Assembly (NCBI RefSeq): GCF_000018545.1
Contig: NC_012587.1
Coordinates: forward strand, 1,798,001 to 1,862,000
Reading direction: 5' to 3'
Length of the DNA: 64,000 nt
DNA from: Sinorhizobium fredii NGR234
GTDB lineage: Bacteria; Pseudomonadota; Alphaproteobacteria; Rhizobiales; Rhizobiaceae
The notes under the pieces were generated by a model. That model did no database searches and was not told the DNA's origin. It was given only the letters and a program-made list of their open reading frames with translations. The position numbers and the translations under genes are program-made. Every line of letters begins with the position of its first letter. Position 1 is the stretch's first letter. Shown here piece by piece: positions 51,075 to 60,524 of the stretch.

Positions 51075-51233
51075 TCAATGCCTGTCCGGCTTGCCATCGC
51101 CATCGTCGAGCACCCGCCATGAGGCGCCGTCGAGATCCTCATACTGGCCGCTCTTCAGCGCCCAGAGAAAGGCCGCGAGACTGAGACTGCCGAGCAACAG
51201 GGCGATCGGGATGAGATAGGCGAGCGTGTTCAT
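51075..51233 (-). CDS. fixS: cbb3 oxidase assembly protein FixS/CcoS
   Basis: This 52-residue protein (too short for most ORF searches) starts MNTLAYLIPIALLLGSLSLA and continues FLWALKSGQYEDLDGASWRV, the standard FixS/CcoS pattern: one membrane segment followed by a W-x(3)-SGQ(Y/F)DDLDG motif. It is needed for active cbb3 oxidase, in the copper delivery step with FixI. Its ATG overlaps the fixI stop by four bases (ATGA), making it the last gene of fixGHIS. Confidence 0.96.
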   Translation of the reverse strand: MNTLAYLIPIALLLGSLSLAAFLWALKSGQYEDLDGASWRVLDDGDGKPDRH

Positions 51234-53494
51234 CGGGCGCTTCCTGCCGGCTGCAAAAGGGAGGCAGGCGGCTCGCTGGCCGTTGCCGAACCGAGGCTTC
51301 GCAATCTCAAGGCATTCGCGACGACGATCACCGATGAGGTGGACATCGCCACTGCTGCCACCAGTGGCGTCGCGTAACCGAGAATGGCGATGGGTACGGC
51401 GATCAGGTTGTAGCCGATTGCGAGGGCGAAATTCTGCCGGATCAGCCGGCCGGCGCGACGCGAGGTCTCGATGGCGAAGGGAATGGCGGTCAATGGCTGG
51501 TGCATGAAGACGAAATCGGCGGCCTGGCGGCCGACGTCGGCGGCCGTCGCCGGGGCCATCGAAACATGGGCGGCGCGAAGGGCCGGCGCATCGTTGATGC
51601 CGTCGCCGACCATCAACACCCGCCGCCCGCCCGCGGCGACGGCATCAACCTTGCCGCGCGGCGAGAGCTCTGCACGCCAGTTGGCAATGCCGAGCCTGCG
51701 GCCGATCTCCGCCACGACCGGCTCGCGGTCGCCGGAAAGAATGCCGGTCGCAAGTCCCAGTTCATGCAGCGCCGCGATGCTCTCGCGCGCGCCGGGGCGG
51801 AGGCGATCTTCGAAGCGGAAACAGGCGAGCTCCTGGCCGCCGAGCGAGAGGATCGCTTCGGGCAACCCGCTCGAGACGCCGATGGTGCCACAGGCGAAGC
51901 TGCGGCTGCCGAGCCGATAGACACCGTTCGCCGTCTTGGCCTCGATGCCTGCGCCCGGAATTTCGCTGATCTCGCCTTCCAGATGAGAGCTACGGGCCGC
52001 ATCGTGCAAGGCGACCGCGATCGGATGGCGAGAATGCGCGGCGAGTGCAGCGGCGGTTGCCAGCACGCCACGCGCAATCTCATGCGCGTTGACGAGGCGC
52101 GGCTCGCCGAGGGTGAGAGTTCCGGTTTTGTCGAGAAGCACCGTGTCGATCTCGGCAAGCCGCTCCATGGCAGAACCGTCCTTGACCATCACCCCGCCCT
52201 GGAAAAGGCGCCCGGCCGCAACCACTTGCACCACCGGCACCGCCAGCCCGAGCGCGCAGGGGCAGGTGATGATCAGCACCGCAACCGCAATCAGCATGGC
52301 ATGGCGGACGTCACCCTCCACCAGCATCCAGCCGATGAAAGTTAGAAGCGCCAGCAGATGGACGGCCGGCGAATAGTAGCGCGCCGCCCGGTCGGCGATG
52401 CGGCGATAACGGGCCCGGCCCCCTTCGGCCGCCTCCATCAGCCCCATGATCTCGGCGAGAAAGGAATCGCGCGCCGCAGCGGTCGTCTCCAAGGTCAGCG
52501 GGCCCGTCAGGTTGAGCGTCCCGGCCTGGACGAGATCGCCCGCTCCGACCGTGATGGGCGCACTCTCGCCGTTGACGACGGAGCGATCGAGATCGCTGCT
52601 GCCGAAAAGCACGCGCCCGTCGACCGGAATTCGCTCGCCGGCGGCGATCATCAGCCGTTCGCCCGGCCTGATCTCGTCGACGGCACGGTATTCGCGCGTG
52701 CCATCGGGGTGAACGACCGTCGCGCCGCGTGGCGACAGACGTGCCAGACCGCTGATGGCGGACCGCGCCCGCCCCCGCATCATGTGGTCGAGGGTCCGGC
52801 CGATCAGCAGGAAAAACAGCAAGGTTACGGACGCATCGAACCAGGCATGCTCGCCATGGCCGATCGTTTCGTAGAGCGACATACCGTAGGACAGCGTCAC
52901 CGCCAGCGCGATCGGCACGTCCATGTTGGTGCGTCCATGGCGAAGGGCGTTCCAGGCCGACTGGTAGAAGAAGCGGCCGGCATAGACCAGCGTCGGTGCC
53001 GCGATCATCGCCGAAATCCAATGGAACAGATCGCGGGTGGCCGCATCCGCCCCGGACCAGACGGAGACGGAGAGCAGCATGATGTTGGTTGCCGCAAAGC
53101 CGGATACTGCCACGGCGCGGATCAATTGCTTGAGCAGCTCATCGCCTTCGTCTTCGCCGGATGAAAGGAGATGCGCCTGGTAACCGCAAGCCGTGATCGC
53201 GCTGACGAATTCGCGGGGTTCGCTGCGGTGACCGCCAACCTCTTCCTTCCACACGATCGAAACGCGGCGCGAGGAGAGATTGACACGGGCGCGCTCGACC
53301 TCGGGTCTGGCGCGCAACGCGCTCTCAATCGTGCTGATGCAGGCGCCGCAGTGGACCCCGGGGACGCTGAGATCCGTCTGGAGCAACCCGCCTCCGAGGC
53401 TTCGGCTCGCAAGCCAGAGCTCTTCGGAGGCGGGCTGCGCCTGCCCCCCTTCGGCAACCGTCGTGATTTCGGCGCCAGGCGCGCAGCAGCTCAT
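51230..53494 (-). CDS. fixI: Copper-translocating P-type ATPase FixI/CcoI
   Basis: This 754-residue P1B-type ATPase delivers copper for cbb3 oxidase assembly. It begins with a cysteine pair (MSCCAPG), then an HMA domain with VPGVHCGACISTIESALRAR, eight membrane segments including the CPC ion-binding motif IITCPCALGLAVP, the phosphorylation motif LLDKTGTLTLGE and the hinge MVGDGINDAPALRAAHVSMA. The start at 53494 overlaps the fixH stop by four bases; the longer frame to 53578 was rejected. Confidence 0.95.
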   Translation of the reverse strand: MSCCAPGAEITTVAEGGQAQPASEELWLASRSLGGGLLQTDLSVPGVHCGACISTIESALRARPEVERARVNLSSRRVSIVWKEEVGGHRSEPREFVSAITACGYQAHLLSSGEDEGDELLKQLIRAVAVSGFAATNIMLLSVSVWSGADAATRDLFHWISAMIAAPTLVYAGRFFYQSAWNALRHGRTNMDVPIALAVTLSYGMSLYETIGHGEHAWFDASVTLLFFLLIGRTLDHMMRGRARSAISGLARLSPRGATVVHPDGTREYRAVDEIRPGERLMIAAGERIPVDGRVLFGSSDLDRSVVNGESAPITVGAGDLVQAGTLNLTGPLTLETTAAARDSFLAEIMGLMEAAEGGRARYRRIADRAARYYSPAVHLLALLTFIGWMLVEGDVRHAMLIAVAVLIITCPCALGLAVPVVQVVAAGRLFQGGVMVKDGSAMERLAEIDTVLLDKTGTLTLGEPRLVNAHEIARGVLATAAALAAHSRHPIAVALHDAARSSHLEGEISEIPGAGIEAKTANGVYRLGSRSFACGTIGVSSGLPEAILSLGGQELACFRFEDRLRPGARESIAALHELGLATGILSGDREPVVAEIGRRLGIANWRAELSPRGKVDAVAAGGRRVLMVGDGINDAPALRAAHVSMAPATAADVGRQAADFVFMHQPLTAIPFAIETSRRAGRLIRQNFALAIGYNLIAVPIAILGYATPLVAAVAMSTSSVIVVANALRLRSLGSATASEPPASLLQPAGSAR

Positions 53495-53985
53495 TTGACG
53501 TCTCCCGGGGCGATGAAGCGGATGGCCTGGCGGTAGACGACGGCGTCGCCGGACATCGCCGTCACATCGGCGATCCATTGGCCGGGCTTCAGACTTTCGG
53601 TGACGAGGAAAGTGCCCTCGTCCTGCCGATCGAGCTCGACGCGAAGATCCTCATGCTCCTCGACCGGCCGCTTGAACACGACGACGACCCTGTCGATCTG
53701 TTTCACCGGTAAGCCGTTGTACGTCACGACGTAGCGAATCCCGCCCGGCTCGGCGGTCAGCCGACCGGTGATGCCGCTTGCCTGAAATGCTCGAGTCTCG
53801 GCGACCTTGCCGTTGAACTGCTGGCTGGCGATATAGGTGTTCTCGACGACGAGGCCGCTCCAGCTTCGGCTGGCATTCCAGGCCATGACGAAGTTGACGG
53901 AGATGATGGTCCCGAAGAACAAGGCCATCACGGCGATCATGTGCCAACCGGTGAATTGACGCTGCTTGCTCGAATGATGGGTCAT
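53491..53985 (-). CDS. fixH: cbb3 oxidase assembly protein FixH
   Basis: This 164-residue protein has one N-terminal membrane segment (GWHMIAVMALFFGTIISVNF) and a periplasmic FixH domain with NTYIASQQFN near residue 50, GGIRYVVTYNGLPVKQIDRV and QWIADVTAMSGDAVVYRQAI. It acts with FixI in cofactor insertion into the oxidase. The start at 53985 (MTHHSSKQRQF) is preferred; 7 bases separate it from fixG. Confidence 0.94.
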   Translation of the reverse strand: MTHHSSKQRQFTGWHMIAVMALFFGTIISVNFVMAWNASRSWSGLVVENTYIASQQFNGKVAETRAFQASGITGRLTAEPGGIRYVVTYNGLPVKQIDRVVVVFKRPVEEHEDLRVELDRQDEGTFLVTESLKPGQWIADVTAMSGDAVVYRQAIRFIAPGDVK

Positions 53986-53992
53986 GTGCGTC

Positions 53993-55564
53993 CTATCTTT
54001 CTGGTGCGGCCCGGTTGAAATTCGCCCGGTACGCGTCCTGCTCACGGCTCAACGGATCGTCGGCAATCAATGTGAAGCCGGCATCCGCCTCGGCGAGGTT
54101 TTCCTTGGGCAGCGTCACGAAAACCTTGAGCGCGGTCACCTTGTCCGGATCGACGTCGATCGCGAAGCTCCGGCCATCGCCGGCGTGGCCGGCAAGCTGC
54201 ATCCGCGCCGATGGCATGCCCTCGATCGCAAGGGTAATGGTGCGCCGCTCAGGGATCATGTTGAGCAGCTTGACCATGTAGCCGTTGCGCACCGAACCAT
54301 CGGACTCGACGACATATTGCGGATTTCGATCGTGCAGCACGTTGAGTTCGAGCCGGTCACGCGATGCGAGCCCATAGACCAGGCCGAGCCCCATCGCTGC
54401 CCAGACGGCGAAATAGAGGAGAACGCGGGTGCGGAAGACGATGCGCCAGTCGAAATGCCTGACCGCGTCCACGAAGGTGCCGTTCGTGTCGCGGACGCGC
54501 CTCGGGTCGATCGCCGCCGCCCCCTTGTTGGTCGCAAGCGCCATATTGGCGGCATAGTCGCTGAGCGTCGCATAGGAGATCAGCCCGCGCTCGCGGCCGA
54601 GCTTGTCCATCACGCCGTCGCAAGCGTCGATGCAGAGTGCGCAGGTGATGCATTCGAGCTGCTGGCCGTCGCGTATGTCGATACCCATCGGACAGACCGC
54701 GACGCAGGCATTGCAATCGACGCAATCGCCGACGACCTCGCCGGCTGCCGCTGCCTTCTTGGCATGGCGCGAGCGCGGTTCGCCGCGCCAGTCGTTATAG
54801 GTGACGACCAGCGAATTCTCGTCCAGCATCGTCGCCTGGATGCGCGGCCAGGGGCACATATAGGTGCAGACCTGCTCGCGCATCAGCCCGCCGAAGACGT
54901 AGGTCGTGGCCGTCAGGATCGCTACGGTGAAATAGGCGACGGGGGGCGCTTCGAACGTGACGAAACTCCTGAGCAGCGATGGAGCATCGGCGAAATAGAA
55001 GATCCAGGCGCCGCCGGTCGCCACGCCGATGACGAGCCAGATTGCATGCTTGGCAATGCGTTTGGAGAACTTGTCGAGCGTCCAGGGACCCGCATTGAGC
55101 CGCATTCGCGCGTTGCGGTCGCCTTCGATGAAGCGTTCGATGACCAGGAAGAGATCGACCCATACCGTCTGCGGACAGGCATAGCCGCACCAGGCCCGGC
55201 CGACGGCGGAAGTCACGAGGAAAAGACCGAGGCCCGCCATGACCAGCAGCCCGGCGACGAAGAAGAACTCCTGCGGCCAGATCTCGATGAAGAAGAAATA
55301 GAAGCGCCGTGCCGCAAGGTCGACGAGGACGGCCTGATCCGGCGCATGGGCGCCGCGATCCCAGCGGATCCACGGCGTCAGGTAATAGATGCCGAGCGTC
55401 GCCAGCATGACGAGCCACTTGAAGCGGCGAAAACGTCCCTCGGCCCGCTTTGGAAAGACTTTCCTGCGCTTTTCGTAGAGGGGCTTGCGAACGCGCGCGG
55501 CATTGACCGGTTCGGCTTCCAGTCTTTCGATCGTCTGAGCTTTGGCGAGGGATCGGGGATGCAT
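53993..55564 (-). CDS. fixG: Cytochrome c oxidase accessory protein FixG/CcoG
   Basis: This 523-residue membrane protein has about five membrane segments and two 4Fe-4S ferredoxin motifs: CVDCNACVAVCPMGID and CITCALCIDACDGVM, plus the conserved AWCGYACPQTVWVDLFLVIE and CTYMCPWPRIQ segments. CcoG reduces copper(II) for the CcoI/FixI pathway. The C-terminal immunoglobulin-like domain is FixG-specific. It is the first gene of fixGHIS with a FixK-type box 63 bases before the start. Confidence 0.95.
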   Translation of the reverse strand: MHPRSLAKAQTIERLEAEPVNAARVRKPLYEKRRKVFPKRAEGRFRRFKWLVMLATLGIYYLTPWIRWDRGAHAPDQAVLVDLAARRFYFFFIEIWPQEFFFVAGLLVMAGLGLFLVTSAVGRAWCGYACPQTVWVDLFLVIERFIEGDRNARMRLNAGPWTLDKFSKRIAKHAIWLVIGVATGGAWIFYFADAPSLLRSFVTFEAPPVAYFTVAILTATTYVFGGLMREQVCTYMCPWPRIQATMLDENSLVVTYNDWRGEPRSRHAKKAAAAGEVVGDCVDCNACVAVCPMGIDIRDGQQLECITCALCIDACDGVMDKLGRERGLISYATLSDYAANMALATNKGAAAIDPRRVRDTNGTFVDAVRHFDWRIVFRTRVLLYFAVWAAMGLGLVYGLASRDRLELNVLHDRNPQYVVESDGSVRNGYMVKLLNMIPERRTITLAIEGMPSARMQLAGHAGDGRSFAIDVDPDKVTALKVFVTLPKENLAEADAGFTLIADDPLSREQDAYRANFNRAAPER

Positions 55565-55849
55565 CCATGGATTCCGGATTATTTCATGATCGCCTCTGTC
55601 ATCACCGATTTCGCCCGTCTCAAACCTTGATCTGCGTCAAGTCTGCGGCCGAATGCCAGCGGTGCGTCGATAAGTCCGCGTCGCATCTTTGACGACAAGC
55701 CACTCCTTTCTGCCTACTTCTCGCTGTAGGATGGTCAGGCGCCGTCGAACGGCGCATTGAGGCAGGCACCGTAAGCTCGAAGGAGATGGCCGTTTCATCC
55801 AGGACCGCGGCGCAGTGAGGTGCTAACCAGGCTGAAAACGGAGAGACGC
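55565..55849. other. Divergent promoter region between fixG and the SRPBCC gene
   Basis: About 285 bases with no gene. It contains the FixK/FNR-type box at 55627-55640. Nothing else was recognised. Confidence 0.5.
55627..55640 (-). promoter_or_regulatory. FixK/FNR-type anaerobox upstream of fixG
   Basis: TTGATctgcGTCAA matches the TTGATnnnnATCAA consensus at all but one position. It lies 63 bases upstream of the fixG start, suitable for activation under low oxygen. Confidence 0.82.
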
Positions 55850-56284
55850 ATGACCACGATGGCCGCCAGAATAATTCATGTCTCGATCGAGCGGGACTGG
55901 CGCGATGTCTATGCCTTCATGGCCGACCACGCGAAGATGCCGCTTTGGGCCTCCGGGCTCTCTTCGGGGCTCACCCGTGACGGCGACGAATGGATCGCGC
56001 CTGGACCGCTCGGCAACGCCCGCGTCCGCTTTGCTCCCGACAATGAGTTCGGCGTCGTCGATCATCTCGTGACGCTCGAGAACGGCGCGAAGGTCCACAA
56101 CGCGCTGCGGGTCGTGCCGAATGGCGATGGCGCGGAAGTGATGTTCACTATTTTGAGGCAAACCGGCATGAGCGACGAGCAATTCGCGACCGACGCCGCC
56201 TGGGTGGAAAAGGATCTCGCCGCCTTGAAGACCATTCTGGAAAAAGATCAAGAACGACCAAAGACGAGAAAGGACATGCCATGA
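55850..56284 (+). CDS. SRPBCC (START-like) family protein
   Basis: This 144-residue protein has the ligand-binding helix-grip pattern of SRPBCC/polyketide cyclase-like proteins: IIHVSIERDWRDVYAFMADH, WASGLSSGLTRDGDEWIAPG, GVVDHLVTLENGAKVHNALR and FTILRQTGMSDEQFATDAAW-VEKDLAALKTILE. The start follows GGAGAGACGC. It overlaps the next gene by four bases, so the two are co-translated. Its divergent position from fixG suggests possible oxygen-linked expression, which is inference. Confidence 0.82.
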   Translation: MTTMAARIIHVSIERDWRDVYAFMADHAKMPLWASGLSSGLTRDGDEWIAPGPLGNARVRFAPDNEFGVVDHLVTLENGAKVHNALRVVPNGDGAEVMFTILRQTGMSDEQFATDAAWVEKDLAALKTILEKDQERPKTRKDMP

Positions 56285-56628
56285 TCGGTAGCGACCGACG
56301 CATCGACTATATCGAGTTCAATGTTGCCGACATCGCGGCGAGCAAGGCCTTCTACGGCAGCGCGTTCGGCTGGACCTTCACCGATTACGGTCCGGAATAT
56401 TGCGAGTTCGCGGACGGCCGGCTGACCGGCGGCTTCACGACGCTCGGTCCGGTCCGCAGCGGCGGGCCGCTCGTCATCATCTATGCCGATGACCTGGAGG
56501 ACGCTCAAACCCGTGTCGAGAGCGCCGGCGGCAGGATCCTCAAGCCGATCTTCGCCTTCCCCGGCGGCCGGCGCTTTCACTTTACCGATCCGGATGGCTA
56601 CGAGCTGGCGGTCTGGTCCAAGCAATAA
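56281..56628 (+). CDS. VOC (glyoxalase/bleomycin resistance-like) family protein
   Basis: This 115-residue single VOC module pair has IDYIEFNVADIAASKAFYGS, WTFTDYGPEYCEFADGRLTG, YADDLEDAQTRVESAGGRIL and RFHFTDPDGYELAVWSKQ. Metal ligands are plausible at E and H positions. Substrate unknown. It shares an ATGA overlap with the SRPBCC gene. Confidence 0.88.
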   Translation: MIGSDRRIDYIEFNVADIAASKAFYGSAFGWTFTDYGPEYCEFADGRLTGGFTTLGPVRSGGPLVIIYADDLEDAQTRVESAGGRILKPIFAFPGGRRFHFTDPDGYELAVWSKQ

Positions 56629-56652
56629 GTTCAACTGGCAGGGAGCGCACTT

Positions 56653-56739
56653 TCATTCGCCGAAACGGATGAAAAGTGCGCTGACGAGGCCGAAGACGAC
56701 GATGCACTGCAGGATGAACATGGGCCATTCCTGTGACAT
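56653..56739 (-). CDS. 28-residue single-pass membrane microprotein near fixP
   Basis: An ATG at 56739 has a near-ideal ribosome site (GAGAGGAGGAGCGAG) and opens a 28-codon frame starting MSQEWPMFI and ending ALFIRFGE before TGA. Residues ~7-25 are strongly hydrophobic (FILQCIVVFGLVSALF), so it is a single-pass membrane peptide with a polar N-terminus and a charged end. It lies 213 bases downstream of fixP on the same strand, after a probable terminator. Small single-helix subunits (CcoM type) are known in some cbb3 oxidases; whether this is related is unknown. Its size is below usual annotation limits. Confidence 0.62.
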   Translation of the reverse strand: MSQEWPMFILQCIVVFGLVSALFIRFGE

Positions 56740-56891
56740 CTCGCTCCTCCTCTCGAATGACCGCCGCCACAACGGCAAACCTGCAATGGAGCGGCTCCGG
56801 AAACGCAGGTGCTGACCGGCAAACGACAGATTATTGATGAGTGGCCGGCCACGAGAAAAGTTTAGCATCTCCTTTTGAATTGCGCACAGAA

Positions 56892-56916
56892 AAGCCGCAC
56901 GCCCTGAGGGGACGTG
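56892..56916 (-). terminator. Probable terminator downstream of fixP
   Basis: On the minus strand GCACG and CGTGC enclose TCCCCTCAGGG and are followed by GGCTTTTCTG. It starts 36 bases after the fixP stop and separates the fixNOQP transcript from the microprotein gene. The stem is short, so some read-through is possible. Confidence 0.6.
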
Positions 56917-56952
56917 CAGCCAACGCATGAGGGAAGCTGTTCGGACGGCTCG

Positions 56953-57816
56953 CTACTCGCCGCCGCCAAGCGAGTGGACGAAGACCGCGAGTTGCTTGAC
57001 TGCCGTGTCGCCGATGCGAGGCAGCCACGCGGGCATGACGCCATGCTTCGGCGCTTTCATCTGGTTGACGATCGCCTGCTCGCCCTCCTCGTTCAACCAG
57101 ATTGCGTCCGCCAAATTGGGTGCGCCCATCTCGCGGTTGCCCTTCGCATCCGCGCCGTGGCAGGCGGAGCAGTTGTCCGCGAAGAGCTGCTTTCCGTTCG
57201 TAACAAGCGCCAGATCGGACGACGTACCACTGAGACTGACGACGTAGGCCGCGGTCTCGCGCATCTCTTCGTGTGTCAGCATCTCCGCGAAGGAGGGCAT
57301 CTCGGAGACACGCGTTTCCGCATCGCCGCTGTGACGGATGCCATGCGCGATCGTCAGATAGATGTCCTCGGGCTTGCCGCCCCAAAGCCACTCGTCGTCG
57401 TTGAGGTTCGGGAAGCCCTTGGCGCCGGCCGCCCCGGAACCGTGGCACTGGGCACAGTTGACTTTGAAGGCCGACGCACCGCCTGCCGCCGCGAATTGCT
57501 GAAGTTGCGGGTCGGCGATGATTTCGTCTAGCGAACTGGACGCGATGCGCTCAAGACTCCCTGCCTGCGCTGCCTTGGCATTGGCAAGCTCCGTGCTGAC
57601 CTCGGCGCGGCTGGAGAACCCGAGCATGCCCTTGGTCGCATCCGTGAGCAGCGGGATCGAGGGATAGGCGACGGCATAACCGACCCCCCAGAGGATCGTG
57701 GCGTAGAACGTATAGACCCACCAGCGCGGCATCGGATTGTTGAGTTCGCGAATGCCATCCCATTCGTGGCCGGTGGTTTCGACGCCGCTGATCTCGTCGA
57801 TATGCTTGTCCGCCAT
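56953..57816 (-). CDS. fixP: cbb3-type cytochrome c oxidase subunit III (di-heme FixP/CcoP)
   Basis: This 287-residue protein has an N-terminal membrane segment (RWWVYTFYATILWGVGYAVA) and two class-I cytochrome c domains with heme sites CAQCH (near residue 120) and CSACH (near residue 215), each followed by its Met axial ligand region (AEMLTHEEM, GVMPAWL). It accepts electrons from cytochrome c and passes them to FixO/FixN. Its ribosome site AAGGAGGACTGATC lies inside the repeat-derived end of fixQ. Confidence 0.96.
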   Translation of the reverse strand: MADKHIDEISGVETTGHEWDGIRELNNPMPRWWVYTFYATILWGVGYAVAYPSIPLLTDATKGMLGFSSRAEVSTELANAKAAQAGSLERIASSSLDEIIADPQLQQFAAAGGASAFKVNCAQCHGSGAAGAKGFPNLNDDEWLWGGKPEDIYLTIAHGIRHSGDAETRVSEMPSFAEMLTHEEMRETAAYVVSLSGTSSDLALVTNGKQLFADNCSACHGADAKGNREMGAPNLADAIWLNEEGEQAIVNQMKAPKHGVMPAWLPRIGDTAVKQLAVFVHSLGGGE

Positions 57817-57818
57817 GA

Positions 57819-58049
57819 TCAGTCCTCCTTTCGAGCGGCATGAGGAAAAGTGTGCAACGGTTTTCCGCCCGCATGCCGCCCTGGCTCGGAGCCGATCACA
57901 TCGTGATTGAAGGGTATGGCAGCGGCCTGGTTGGCGGCCGCCTTGGCGCCAGGCCGGAAGATGAAAGCGACGACGCCGAGAAAGAAGAGCGTCATGCCAA
58001 GGAGAGCCCAGCTGTCGGCGAAATGGCGCATGGCGGTATAGGTTTCCAT
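57819..58049 (-). CDS. fixQ: cbb3-type cytochrome c oxidase subunit FixQ/CcoQ with repeat-derived tail
   Basis: FixQ is a small single-pass subunit that stabilises the cbb3 complex. Residues 1-50 are the canonical form (METYTAMRHFADSWALLGMT, LFFLGVVAFIFRPGAKAA). The usual protein ends about residue 50; this one runs to 76 with EPGRHAGGKPLHTFPHAAR. That extra tail is encoded by a palindromic repeat (57834-57909) identical in its core to one at 24138-24255. The stop is two bases before the fixP start. The start is chosen at METYT after a GGAAC-type site; the frame to 58142 was rejected. Confidence 0.92.
   Translation of the reverse strand: METYTAMRHFADSWALLGMTLFFLGVVAFIFRPGAKAAANQAAAIPFNHDVIGSEPGRHAGGKPLHTFPHAARKED
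57834..57909. repeat. Palindromic repeat inside the 3' part of fixQ
   Basis: AGCGGCATGAGGAAAAGTGT, then CGGTTTTCCGCCCGCATGCC and GATCAC follow the same order as in the intergenic copy at 24138-24255. The arms GCGGCATG / CATGCCGC remain complementary although their bases differ from the other copy (GCGGGATG / CATCCCGC). Confidence 0.85.
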
Positions 58050-58062
58050 GTCAGTTCCCCGC

Positions 58063-58794
58063 TCAGCGATAGCCGGTCGTGTCGTCATAGGTGGAGAAAT
58101 CGACGAGCGTGCCGAGCATCTGCAGATAGGCGACAAGCGCATCCATCTCGGTCAGCTTTTGCGGATCGCCGTCGAAATCACCGAGCTTGGCCTTGGGGTA
58201 GCGCGCCTCGAGGCCGGATGTGTCCGCATTCGGATCGGCTTGCGCTTTGACGTCCGCCAGCGCGGTGTCGATCATCTCGTCCGTGTAGGGGACGCCAACC
58301 GCCCTGTTCGCCTCGATGCTCGCAGCAACGTTCTTCACCTCGAGCGGCGTCTCCTTCAGGAAGGCGTAGCTCGGCATGACCGATTCCGGCACGACCGAGC
58401 GCGGCTCGATCATGTGCTGGACGTGCCATTCGTTGGAATAGCGCGCGCCGACGCGGGCGAGGTCCGGACCGGTGCGTTTCGAGCCCCACTGGAAGGGATG
58501 GTCGTACATCGACTCCGCCGCCAGCGAATAATGACCGTAGCGCTCAACCTCATCGCGGAACGGCCGGATCATCTGGCTGTGACAGACATAGCAGCCCTCG
58601 CGGACATAGATATCGCGACCGGCAAGCTCCAGCGGCGAATAAGGCCGCATACCCTCGACCTTCTCGATGGTGTTCTCGAGGTAGAAGAGCGGAGCGATTT
58701 CGACGATGCCGCCGATCGAGACGACGAGCAGGGAACCGACGAGCAGCAGCGTCGCATTGCGTTCGAATAGCGCGTGTTTGTCGAGAATGGACAT
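58063..58794 (-). CDS. fixO: cbb3-type cytochrome c oxidase subunit II (mono-heme FixO/CcoO)
   Basis: This 243-residue protein has an N-terminal membrane anchor ([20 protein letters not shown]) and one c-type heme site [12 protein letters not shown] (Cys68, Cys71, His72), followed by [34 protein letters not shown], all diagnostic of CcoO. The axial Met is in SVMPSYAFL. It lies 12 bases after fixN in the operon. Confidence 0.97.
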
Positions 58795-58806
58795 GGGTCT
58801 CCCCTC

Positions 58807-60426
58807 CTATTCCGCAGCCGCTGGCAGCGCCGCGGCATCGAGGATCGAGGCCTCGTCGCGGACACGACCGAGGATCGTCATTGTTACGTTGAAGGCCATG
58901 ATGAGCGCGCCGGCGAAGAACAGGGCACCCCCGGCGGCACGCATGACGTAATAGGGCAACATCGCCGCGACCGATTCCGCGAAGGAATAGACGAGGAAGC
59001 CCTGGTCATCGTATTCGCGCCACATCAGCCCTTGCTGGATGCCGGCGACCCACATGGTGGCGGCGTAGACGACGATGCCGAGGGTGGCGAGCCAGAAGTG
59101 CCAGTTGACCATGCGCAGGCTGTAGAGCCGCTCGCGGTTCCAGAGCTTCGGCACCAGGTAATAGATGGCACCGAAGGTGATCAGGCCGTTCCAACCGAGC
59201 GCGCCCGAGTGCACGTGGCCAATCGTCCAATCGGTGTAGTGGCTTAGCGAATTGACGGTCTTGATCGACATCATCGGGCCTTCGAAGGTCGCCATGCCGT
59301 AGAAGGCGACGGCCATCACCATCATGCGGACGATGGGGTCGGTGCGGACCTTGTCCCAGGCTCCCGACAGCGTCATCAGGCCGTTGATCATGCCGCCCCA
59401 GGAGGGCATCCAGAGCATCACGGAAAAGACCATGCCGAGCGTCTGCGCCCAGTCCGGCAGCGCCGTATAATGGAGGTGATGGGGACCGGCCCAGATATAC
59501 ATGAAGATCAGCGACCAGAAGTGGATGATCGACAGCCGGTAGGAATAGACCGGACGGTTCACCTGCTTGGGGATGAAGTAGTACATCATCGCCAGGAAGC
59601 CGGCCGTCAGGAAGAAGCCGACGGCGTTGTGGCCGTACCACCATTGCGTCAGCGCATCCTGCACGCCCGCGAAGGCGGAATAGCTCTTCGAGCCGAGGAA
59701 CGAGACCGGCACCGCCAGGTTGTTGACGATGTGGAGCAAGGCGATCGTCACGATGAAGGCGAGATAGAACCAGTTCGCCACATAGATGTGCGGCTCCTTG
59801 CGCACCAGGATCGTGCCCAGGAAGACAATGAGGTAGGCGACCCATACGATCGTCAGCCAGAGGTCGACGTACCATTCCGGTTCCGCATATTCGCGCCCCT
59901 GGGTGATCCCGAGCAGATAGCCGGTGGCGGCAAGCACGATGAAGAGCTGGTAGCCCCAGAAGACGAACCAGCCGAGATTGCCGCCGAAAAGCCGGGCGCG
60001 GCTGGTGCGTTGCACGACATAGAGGGAGGTCGCAATCAGAGCATTGCCGCCGAATGCGAAAATGACCGCTGAGGTGTGCAGCGGCCGGACGCGGCCGAAG
60101 TTGAACCACGGCTCGATATTGAGGTCGGGAAAGGCGAGTTGCAGCGCCACGACGACGCCGACGAGGAACCCGACGGCGCCCCAGAAAACCGTGGCAATCA
60201 CGCCGTACTTCACCACCTCGTCGAAATATTCCTGCCGCTGCGGCGCGTGCCCCGAAATGGCGGGGCGAAAATCGACCCGCCGCATCAGCACGATCGTGCC
60301 GCCGAACAGCGCGAAGAACAGCACCCACATATGCGCTGCAAAAAAGCGATCCTCAGCGAAACCGGCCCCTACCAGCGCCAGGAAGGCGCCGACACCGAGC
60401 AGGATCGTCTCCACCGTATATTTCAT
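58807..60426 (-). CDS. fixN: cbb3-type cytochrome c oxidase subunit I (FixN/CcoN)
   Basis: This 539-residue catalytic subunit has about twelve membrane segments and reduces oxygen with high affinity at a heme b3-copper centre. Conserved histidines are in [60 protein letters not shown] and [18 protein letters not shown]. The start is [11 protein letters not shown] at 60426; the frame to 60516 has no support. It is the first gene of fixNOQP. Confidence 0.97.
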
Positions 60427-60524
60427 TGTTGGACCCCCAACTTTTCCACCTGCCGGCCATCGCGCACATGGTCGCGCGTCGGCCAACGCGGCTGGAGATT
60501 TGTCGGAATCATCCATCCCCTGCC

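Follow-up and report, generated by a model that had tools for sequence, protein, structure and literature searches.

CcoM, which is included in a solved structure entry, and CydX, which has a length of about 30 residues, are oxidase microproteins with which the locus analysed here can be compared. CcoM is described as a 36-residue subunit of the cbb3 oxidase of Pseudomonas stutzeri (PMC10433244), and CydX as a single-helix microprotein that is the small subunit of cytochrome bd oxidase (PMC6005532). A small-protein study of Sinorhizobium meliloti 2011 reported 48 novel small proteins (PMC10117765). According to the part of that paper cited here, SEP6 (sORF6) is shorter than 30 aa, has a predicted membrane helix, is conserved in Hyphomicrobiales and, when tagged, was found mainly in the P100 fraction; SEP20 of S. 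meliloti is encoded between ctaB and ctaG in ctaCDBGE, and an oxidase role was suggested from its place in the operon (PMC10117765).

The window, that is, the whole stretch of 64,000 nucleotides of Sinorhizobium fredii NGR234 DNA that was analysed, contains a similarly small gene beside the genes of a cbb3 oxidase. The features of this region are as follows.

56653 to 56739, minus strand: microprotein gene, 28 codons plus TGA, product MSQEWPMFILQCIVVFGLVSALFIRFGE (by minus-strand translation)
56744 to 56752, minus strand: ribosome-binding site GAGGAGGAG
56858 to 56867, minus strand: TGCTAAACTT motif, candidate promoter element (TG[CT]TA[AG]-type match)
56893 to 56921, minus strand: terminator-like hairpin after fixP, 12 pairs with a T-rich tail
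56953 to 57816, minus strand: fixP (ccoP), upstream neighbour, outside the microprotein gene (TIGR00782, E 3.4e-107)
56281 to 56628, plus strand: VOC-family gene, convergent (Pfam Glyoxalase)
55820 to 56284, plus strand: SRPBCC-like gene, convergent (Pfam Polyketide_cyc2, E 0.021, below cut-off; name taken from how the equivalent locus of S. meliloti is annotated)

An earlier note on this DNA had described a strong ribosome site before the ATG of a 28-codon frame. This was borne out, GAGGAGGAG being located 4 nt ahead of the ATG; plus-strand translation of 56653-56739 gave no such frame. A single helix at about residues 7-24 was predicted for the product from hydropathy alone. With a 17-residue hydropathy of 2.68 it is a small hydrophobic peptide, and its net charge calculated from the sequence is about -1. 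As a screen for chance, all start-stop pairs of 15-50 codons in the window were considered, 1569 in total. Two of them passed both thresholds (a Shine-Dalgarno match of at least 5 nt and a 17-residue hydropathy of at least 1.6), and of these two the microprotein has the higher hydropathy and is alone in starting with ATG. Starts further upstream in frame (56928 would give 91 aa) were rejected because the open frame around the microprotein is only 33-36 aa in many genus loci, and because conservation across the genus does not extend to the upstream DNA.

The neighbours were also as the earlier note had placed them, with the gene on the fixNOQP strand between fixP and the SRPBCC/VOC pair. Upstream on the microprotein strand are fixN, fixO, fixQ and fixP, the end of fixP (56953) being 213 nt away; past the VOC/SRPBCC-like pair come fixG and fixI, and the locus as a whole is flanked by lpxXL and gndA. 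The next same-strand gene downstream is fixG, the start of which is about 1.1 kb off, beyond the convergent pair. In each of the 30 genus loci the VOC gene lies 3' of the microprotein gene, at a distance of 3.1 kb in genome G028. In the window (56628-56653) the stop codons of the two convergent genes are 24 nt apart, and read-through from the VOC gene would therefore be antisense to the microprotein gene.

The terminator-like hairpin, which is not significant alone, would stop fixNOQP transcription short of the microprotein gene. Its count of one against a shuffle mean of 0.4 (sd 0.5) is weak alone, and the folded stretch as a whole was no more stable than shuffles (z -0.73). A search expression of the TG[CT]TA[AG] type matched upstream of the microprotein in 12 of the 30 genus loci and missed a variant in L030; an alignment covered 18 of the 30 loci. 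As a shared promoter, the TGCTAAACTT-type motif stays a candidate. The region upstream of the gene gave no match to the sigma-70 consensus, and Rfam gave a single match on 56400-57100 (RF01046, 19.5 bits, where the cut-off is 50). Separately, a palindrome of the type CCTAAATCGG-N-CCGATTTAGG precedes the gene by about 60-115 nt in L010, L011, L013, L014, L022 and L023, and in imperfect form in L006, L009 and L012. It was found in several species, with fixP nearby or not, and may be a terminator or a repeat.

A peptide search showed the microprotein at full length and uninterrupted in 30 of the 33 genus genomes, that of the window included, with identities of 82-100%. The three others were G009 (70% complete), which gave no match, G021, which gave none in this search but elsewhere a weak one (E 0.017) that contains an in-frame stop and lies beside the apparent 3' end of the VOC gene, and G011, in which only the C-terminal part is present, with no in-frame start. 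The 30 intact copies correspond to 25 distinct DNA alleles and 11 peptides. Over the 25 alleles the mean pairwise pS and pN, given as uncorrected proportions, were 0.390 and 0.034, with a pN/pS of 0.088; the variable columns of the 30 copies number 6, 5 and 19 at the three codon positions. A purine-rich core (GAGG, GGAG or AGGA) precedes the ATG in all 30 loci. The frame and its ribosome site are thus conserved with a codon-like pattern of substitution, the check that had been proposed for the gene. The frame belongs to a conserved small-membrane-protein family with purifying selection on its residues, and the earlier claim of a real, unannotated single-helix microprotein holds.

The DNA upstream of the gene varies between species groups of the genus. 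Within the frame no convincing excess of invariant degenerate codons, which would indicate extra constraint at the RNA level, was seen: never-varying codons among the residue-invariant degenerate ones were 4 of 16 in the microprotein (30 genomes), 7 of 65 in the VOC gene (29 genomes) and, for fixP, 38 of 179 across 15 genomes, of which one has a remnant. On a tree of the VOC/SRPBCC DNA, the row of the window pairs with that of S. fredii USDA 205 with moderate support (85). No feature is annotated under the eight microprotein matches in the plasmid collection, a result that is informative only where a real gene table exists, as it does in three of the records; three of the remaining records carry 6, 2 and 1 features in the entire record. 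The S. meliloti record, the gene table of which is incomplete, has no feature at the microprotein position. One S. meliloti record of 3.72 Mb (L074, CP090106.1) is titled pSymB, yet its size and its lpxXL-gndA region match the chromosome of its relatives.

The family extends beyond the genus. A first profile, made of 17 genus sequences only, matched relatives outside it with a best E of 1.2e-16. A second profile, to which distant members were added, gave a patchy distribution of at least 25 of 394 sampled family genomes and at least 8 of 109 genera, the own genus included; it contains many of the genomes that it finds and gained no new ones. Since about 20-28 candidates were scored per genome in these searches, the lack of a match is not proven absence. 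Seven of the 25 carriers belong to the genus and 18 do not, and 17 of these 18 have at least one open copy. The copy in G158 (L089) has an in-frame TAG at the position of the conserved glutamine and is probably decayed. Genome G379, which has no FixO match, carries three diverged copies (L085, L090 and L091) on three contigs. Among the candidates scored in samples of the order (397 genomes) and of the class (289 genomes), there was no credible match outside the family, the lone one (E 0.006) being located within a 529-codon frame.

In an alignment of 17 cross-genus sequences, M1, P6, M7, Q11 and I24 never vary, and L10, V14 and R25 are almost invariant; exceptions among copies outside this alignment are Leu at position 7 (L091 and L079) and Val at position 24 (L090). 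The conserved residues are located at both ends of the helix and around Q11. For 17 family members at E values up to 10, Pfam gave no family and NCBIfam three weak, unrelated ones. A search of solved structures with the family profile, also at E up to 10, gave two chains, neither of which is credible or belongs to a cbb3 oxidase. At the DNA level, similarity between genus codes runs from about -15 to the stop codon or a few nucleotides beyond. Since similarity hardly goes beyond the ribosome site and the frame, the protein gene is what persists or moves. No conserved promoter or antisense element was visible in the cross-genus DNA comparison. Two pairs in which plasmid records with no genus code take part have longer shared flanks, of 240 nt for L076/L081 and 400 nt for L077/L080. 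In L097-L099 (genus code g78), a GC-rich hairpin with a T-run lies close 3' of the microprotein gene.

We consider it probable, at roughly 0.74, that this is a gene for a single-span inner-membrane microprotein, probably its own transcription unit, which founds an undescribed family of the Rhizobiaceae and has its partner elsewhere. The microprotein would be translated and inserted as one helix in the inner membrane, where it would pack against a membrane protein from another locus of the genome. One face of the helix could be lined by the polar Q11 together with the small residues at positions 17 (in most members) and 20, and P6-M7 and I24-R25 could set the ends of the helix; such packing might stabilise or tune the membrane partner. 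More tentatively, and as a possibility that we would not yet put at even odds, the P-M-x-x-L-Q ... I-R signature might mark an autonomous, position-independent family that tunes a shared core membrane complex or transporter, possibly in envelope or symbiotic stress.

The genomic context suggested no partner for the microprotein. Outside the genus, groups of flanking ORFs are mostly confined to one genus code. The exceptions include an ABC-transporter-like group in differing places in g127 and g78, and an ORF group common to g54a and g78a/b, 0.5-2.3 kb off and on differing strands. They also include flanks that an Ensifer canadensis record (L077) shares with g95, and others that a Rhizobium NLR16a record (L078) shares with g54; each of these pairs may be one genus. 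A Pfam scan of 30 neighbour ORFs from 15 loci, chosen by a heuristic based on GC by codon position, matched families for 21 of the 30. The neighbours vary (LexA, PAS/HWE kinase, GGDEF-EAL, ABC transporters, MgtC, NDUS4-family and HbpS-like proteins); the 30 ORFs have no common functional theme and include no cbb3 gene and no cyd gene. In L087 the neighbour is of the NDUS4 family (complex I accessory-type), and in L086 it is a haem-related HbpS-like protein. In named Rhizobium records the neighbours are 3-hydroxybutyryl-CoA dehydrogenase with TlpA or with a calcium-binding protein. A shared functional context outside the genus was rejected, as the neighbours have no common theme.

The main rival explanation is that the product is a membrane-active, toxin-like peptide, either of a type I toxin-antitoxin system or as a stress-induced depolariser of the membrane. 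This would explain the patchiness, the shifting positions and the paralogues of a short hydrophobic peptide that occurs at scattered places and in three copies in G379, and broken copies, as in G011, G021 and G158, would be in keeping with it. A lexA-family gene lies 0.17 kb from the microprotein gene in G411, and type I toxins are enriched among peptides predicted from bacterial sRNAs, as stated in the part of PMC5521070 cited here. However, no conserved antisense or regulatory segment was seen with the gene in these comparisons: the cross-genus similarity runs out at approximately the limits of the frame, and species groups of the genus differ in their upstream DNA. The peptide is moreover kept at one locus in 30 of the 33 genus genomes and has a net charge of about -1. 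We therefore regard a toxin as unlikely, if deserving of more attention than the other alternatives.

The earlier note had suggested an oxidase subunit or assembly peptide, and the corresponding rival would be a small accessory subunit or assembly peptide that acts on any cbb3 oxidase in the cell. In its favour, the gene follows fixP at a distance of 213 nt and shares its strand, and the tiny subunit CcoM is a precedent (PMC10433244). Synteny with fixP, which had been proposed as a check, was found in part: a complete or nearly complete fixP adjoins the intact microprotein gene in 14 of the 30 loci, which is as expected, but not in the other 16, where a 3' remnant is left in three and no fixP was seen within 1.5 kb in 13. 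Larger stretches of all 16 genomes showed no complete fixNOQP at the locus. Among these stretches, L037 has shards of fixN, and L036 and L038 retain fixG with a long or partial fixI. In 11 of the 13 genomes with no fixP seen, lpxXL is located upstream at 0.14 to 4.7 kb (about 0.14 kb in five).

On the VOC/SRPBCC tree, the state of fixP changes eight times, at least six changes being forced by well-supported branches; the tree was made by a quick method from a short locus, and the changes are blind to gain versus loss. The remnants show that the changes include loss in some lineages. Between lpxXL and gndA on the chromosome, the fixNOQP block and the fixG/fixI block (51230-60516 in the window; L031-L049) came apart repeatedly in Sinorhizobium, and differing species retain different remnants of fixN, fixP and fixI.

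The content of the genomes bears on the same question. FixO was found somewhere in 31 of the 33 genus genomes, including 15 of the 16 with no intact fixP beside the microprotein, and in 15 of the 18 carriers outside the genus. Because FixO is present in most carriers, co-occurrence itself does not point away from cbb3, and an optional role in trans on cbb3 may exist. A TlpA-family gene is the convergent neighbour in one Rhizobium record, and a TlpA acts in oxidase copper assembly in Bradyrhizobium. However, four carriers have no FixO match, G019 (a 99% complete draft), G411, G379 with its three copies, and G303; in single cases the reason could be a gap in the draft or the loss of a plasmid. 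Conversely, two genomes that retain FixO have a broken microprotein gene: G011, where the locus has single long matches to fixN, fixO, fixQ, fixP, fixG and fixI, and G021. No cbb3 gene was found beside the microprotein in other genera: in the 18 other carriers FixO was never within about 80 kb on the same contig and mostly lay on other draft contigs. Furthermore, 369 of the 394 sampled family genomes have no microprotein among the candidates scored, and cbb3 is not rare in the family (15 of the 18 looked at).

The gene is thus neither regularly encoded with ccoNOQP nor in strict co-occurrence with it, its product has no similarity to a known cbb3 subunit in Pfam, NCBIfam or solved-structure sequences, and its presence is independent of the cbb3 locus. 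These facts leave the proposal of the earlier note unsupported, and we consider a cbb3 accessory role improbable. Since the presence of the microprotein and that of the oxidase dissociate both ways, the most likely reading is a small membrane protein that stands on its own and that the oxidase does not require as a part.

It is very improbable that the frame is a leader peptide or translated regulatory element with an irrelevant product; the short frame and its intergenic place would suit this explanation, but the next same-strand gene, fixG, is about 1.1 kb off beyond the convergent VOC/SRPBCC pair, and the residues are conserved far more than the codons. A chance open frame, for which nothing but the small size speaks, is refuted by the conservation (E 1.2e-16 outside the genus with the genus-only profile; pN/pS 0.088) and can practically be dismissed.

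A single-span membrane microprotein of its own family, the preferred reading, contributes a conserved protein gene missed by both Pfam and NCBIfam. The locus also gives a clear caution against reading function from neighbourhood, as the window points to an oxidase subunit, whereas the two-way losses in related genomes argue otherwise. The S. meliloti orthologue makes the function directly testable in that species. In the literature searched, the fragments MSQEWPM, PMFILQ and EWPMFI were not found in the text, and no description of the gene was found apart from a possible one as SEP6.

Compared with the known systems, the microprotein resembles CcoM in being a tiny membrane protein, encoded in the window near cbb3 genes. 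It differs in that genome content does not tie it to cbb3, and no cbb3 chain is among its two solved-chain matches. CydX is likewise a single-helix microprotein of similar length, but the present family has no Pfam match and only three weak, unrelated NCBIfam ones, so that none of the 17 members matched a CydX family profile at E up to 10, and no cyd gene is among the 30 neighbour ORFs. SEP20 is a small membrane protein at an oxidase locus, for which the same guilt-by-association argument was made; it belongs to another locus and is annotated, according to the part of PMC10117765 cited here. SEP6 is described there as conserved in Hyphomicrobiales, whereas the microprotein family was matched in Rhizobiaceae only in the order and class samples. 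SEP6 is nevertheless similar to the microprotein in size and in its predicted membrane helix and, compared by description only, may be its S. meliloti orthologue.
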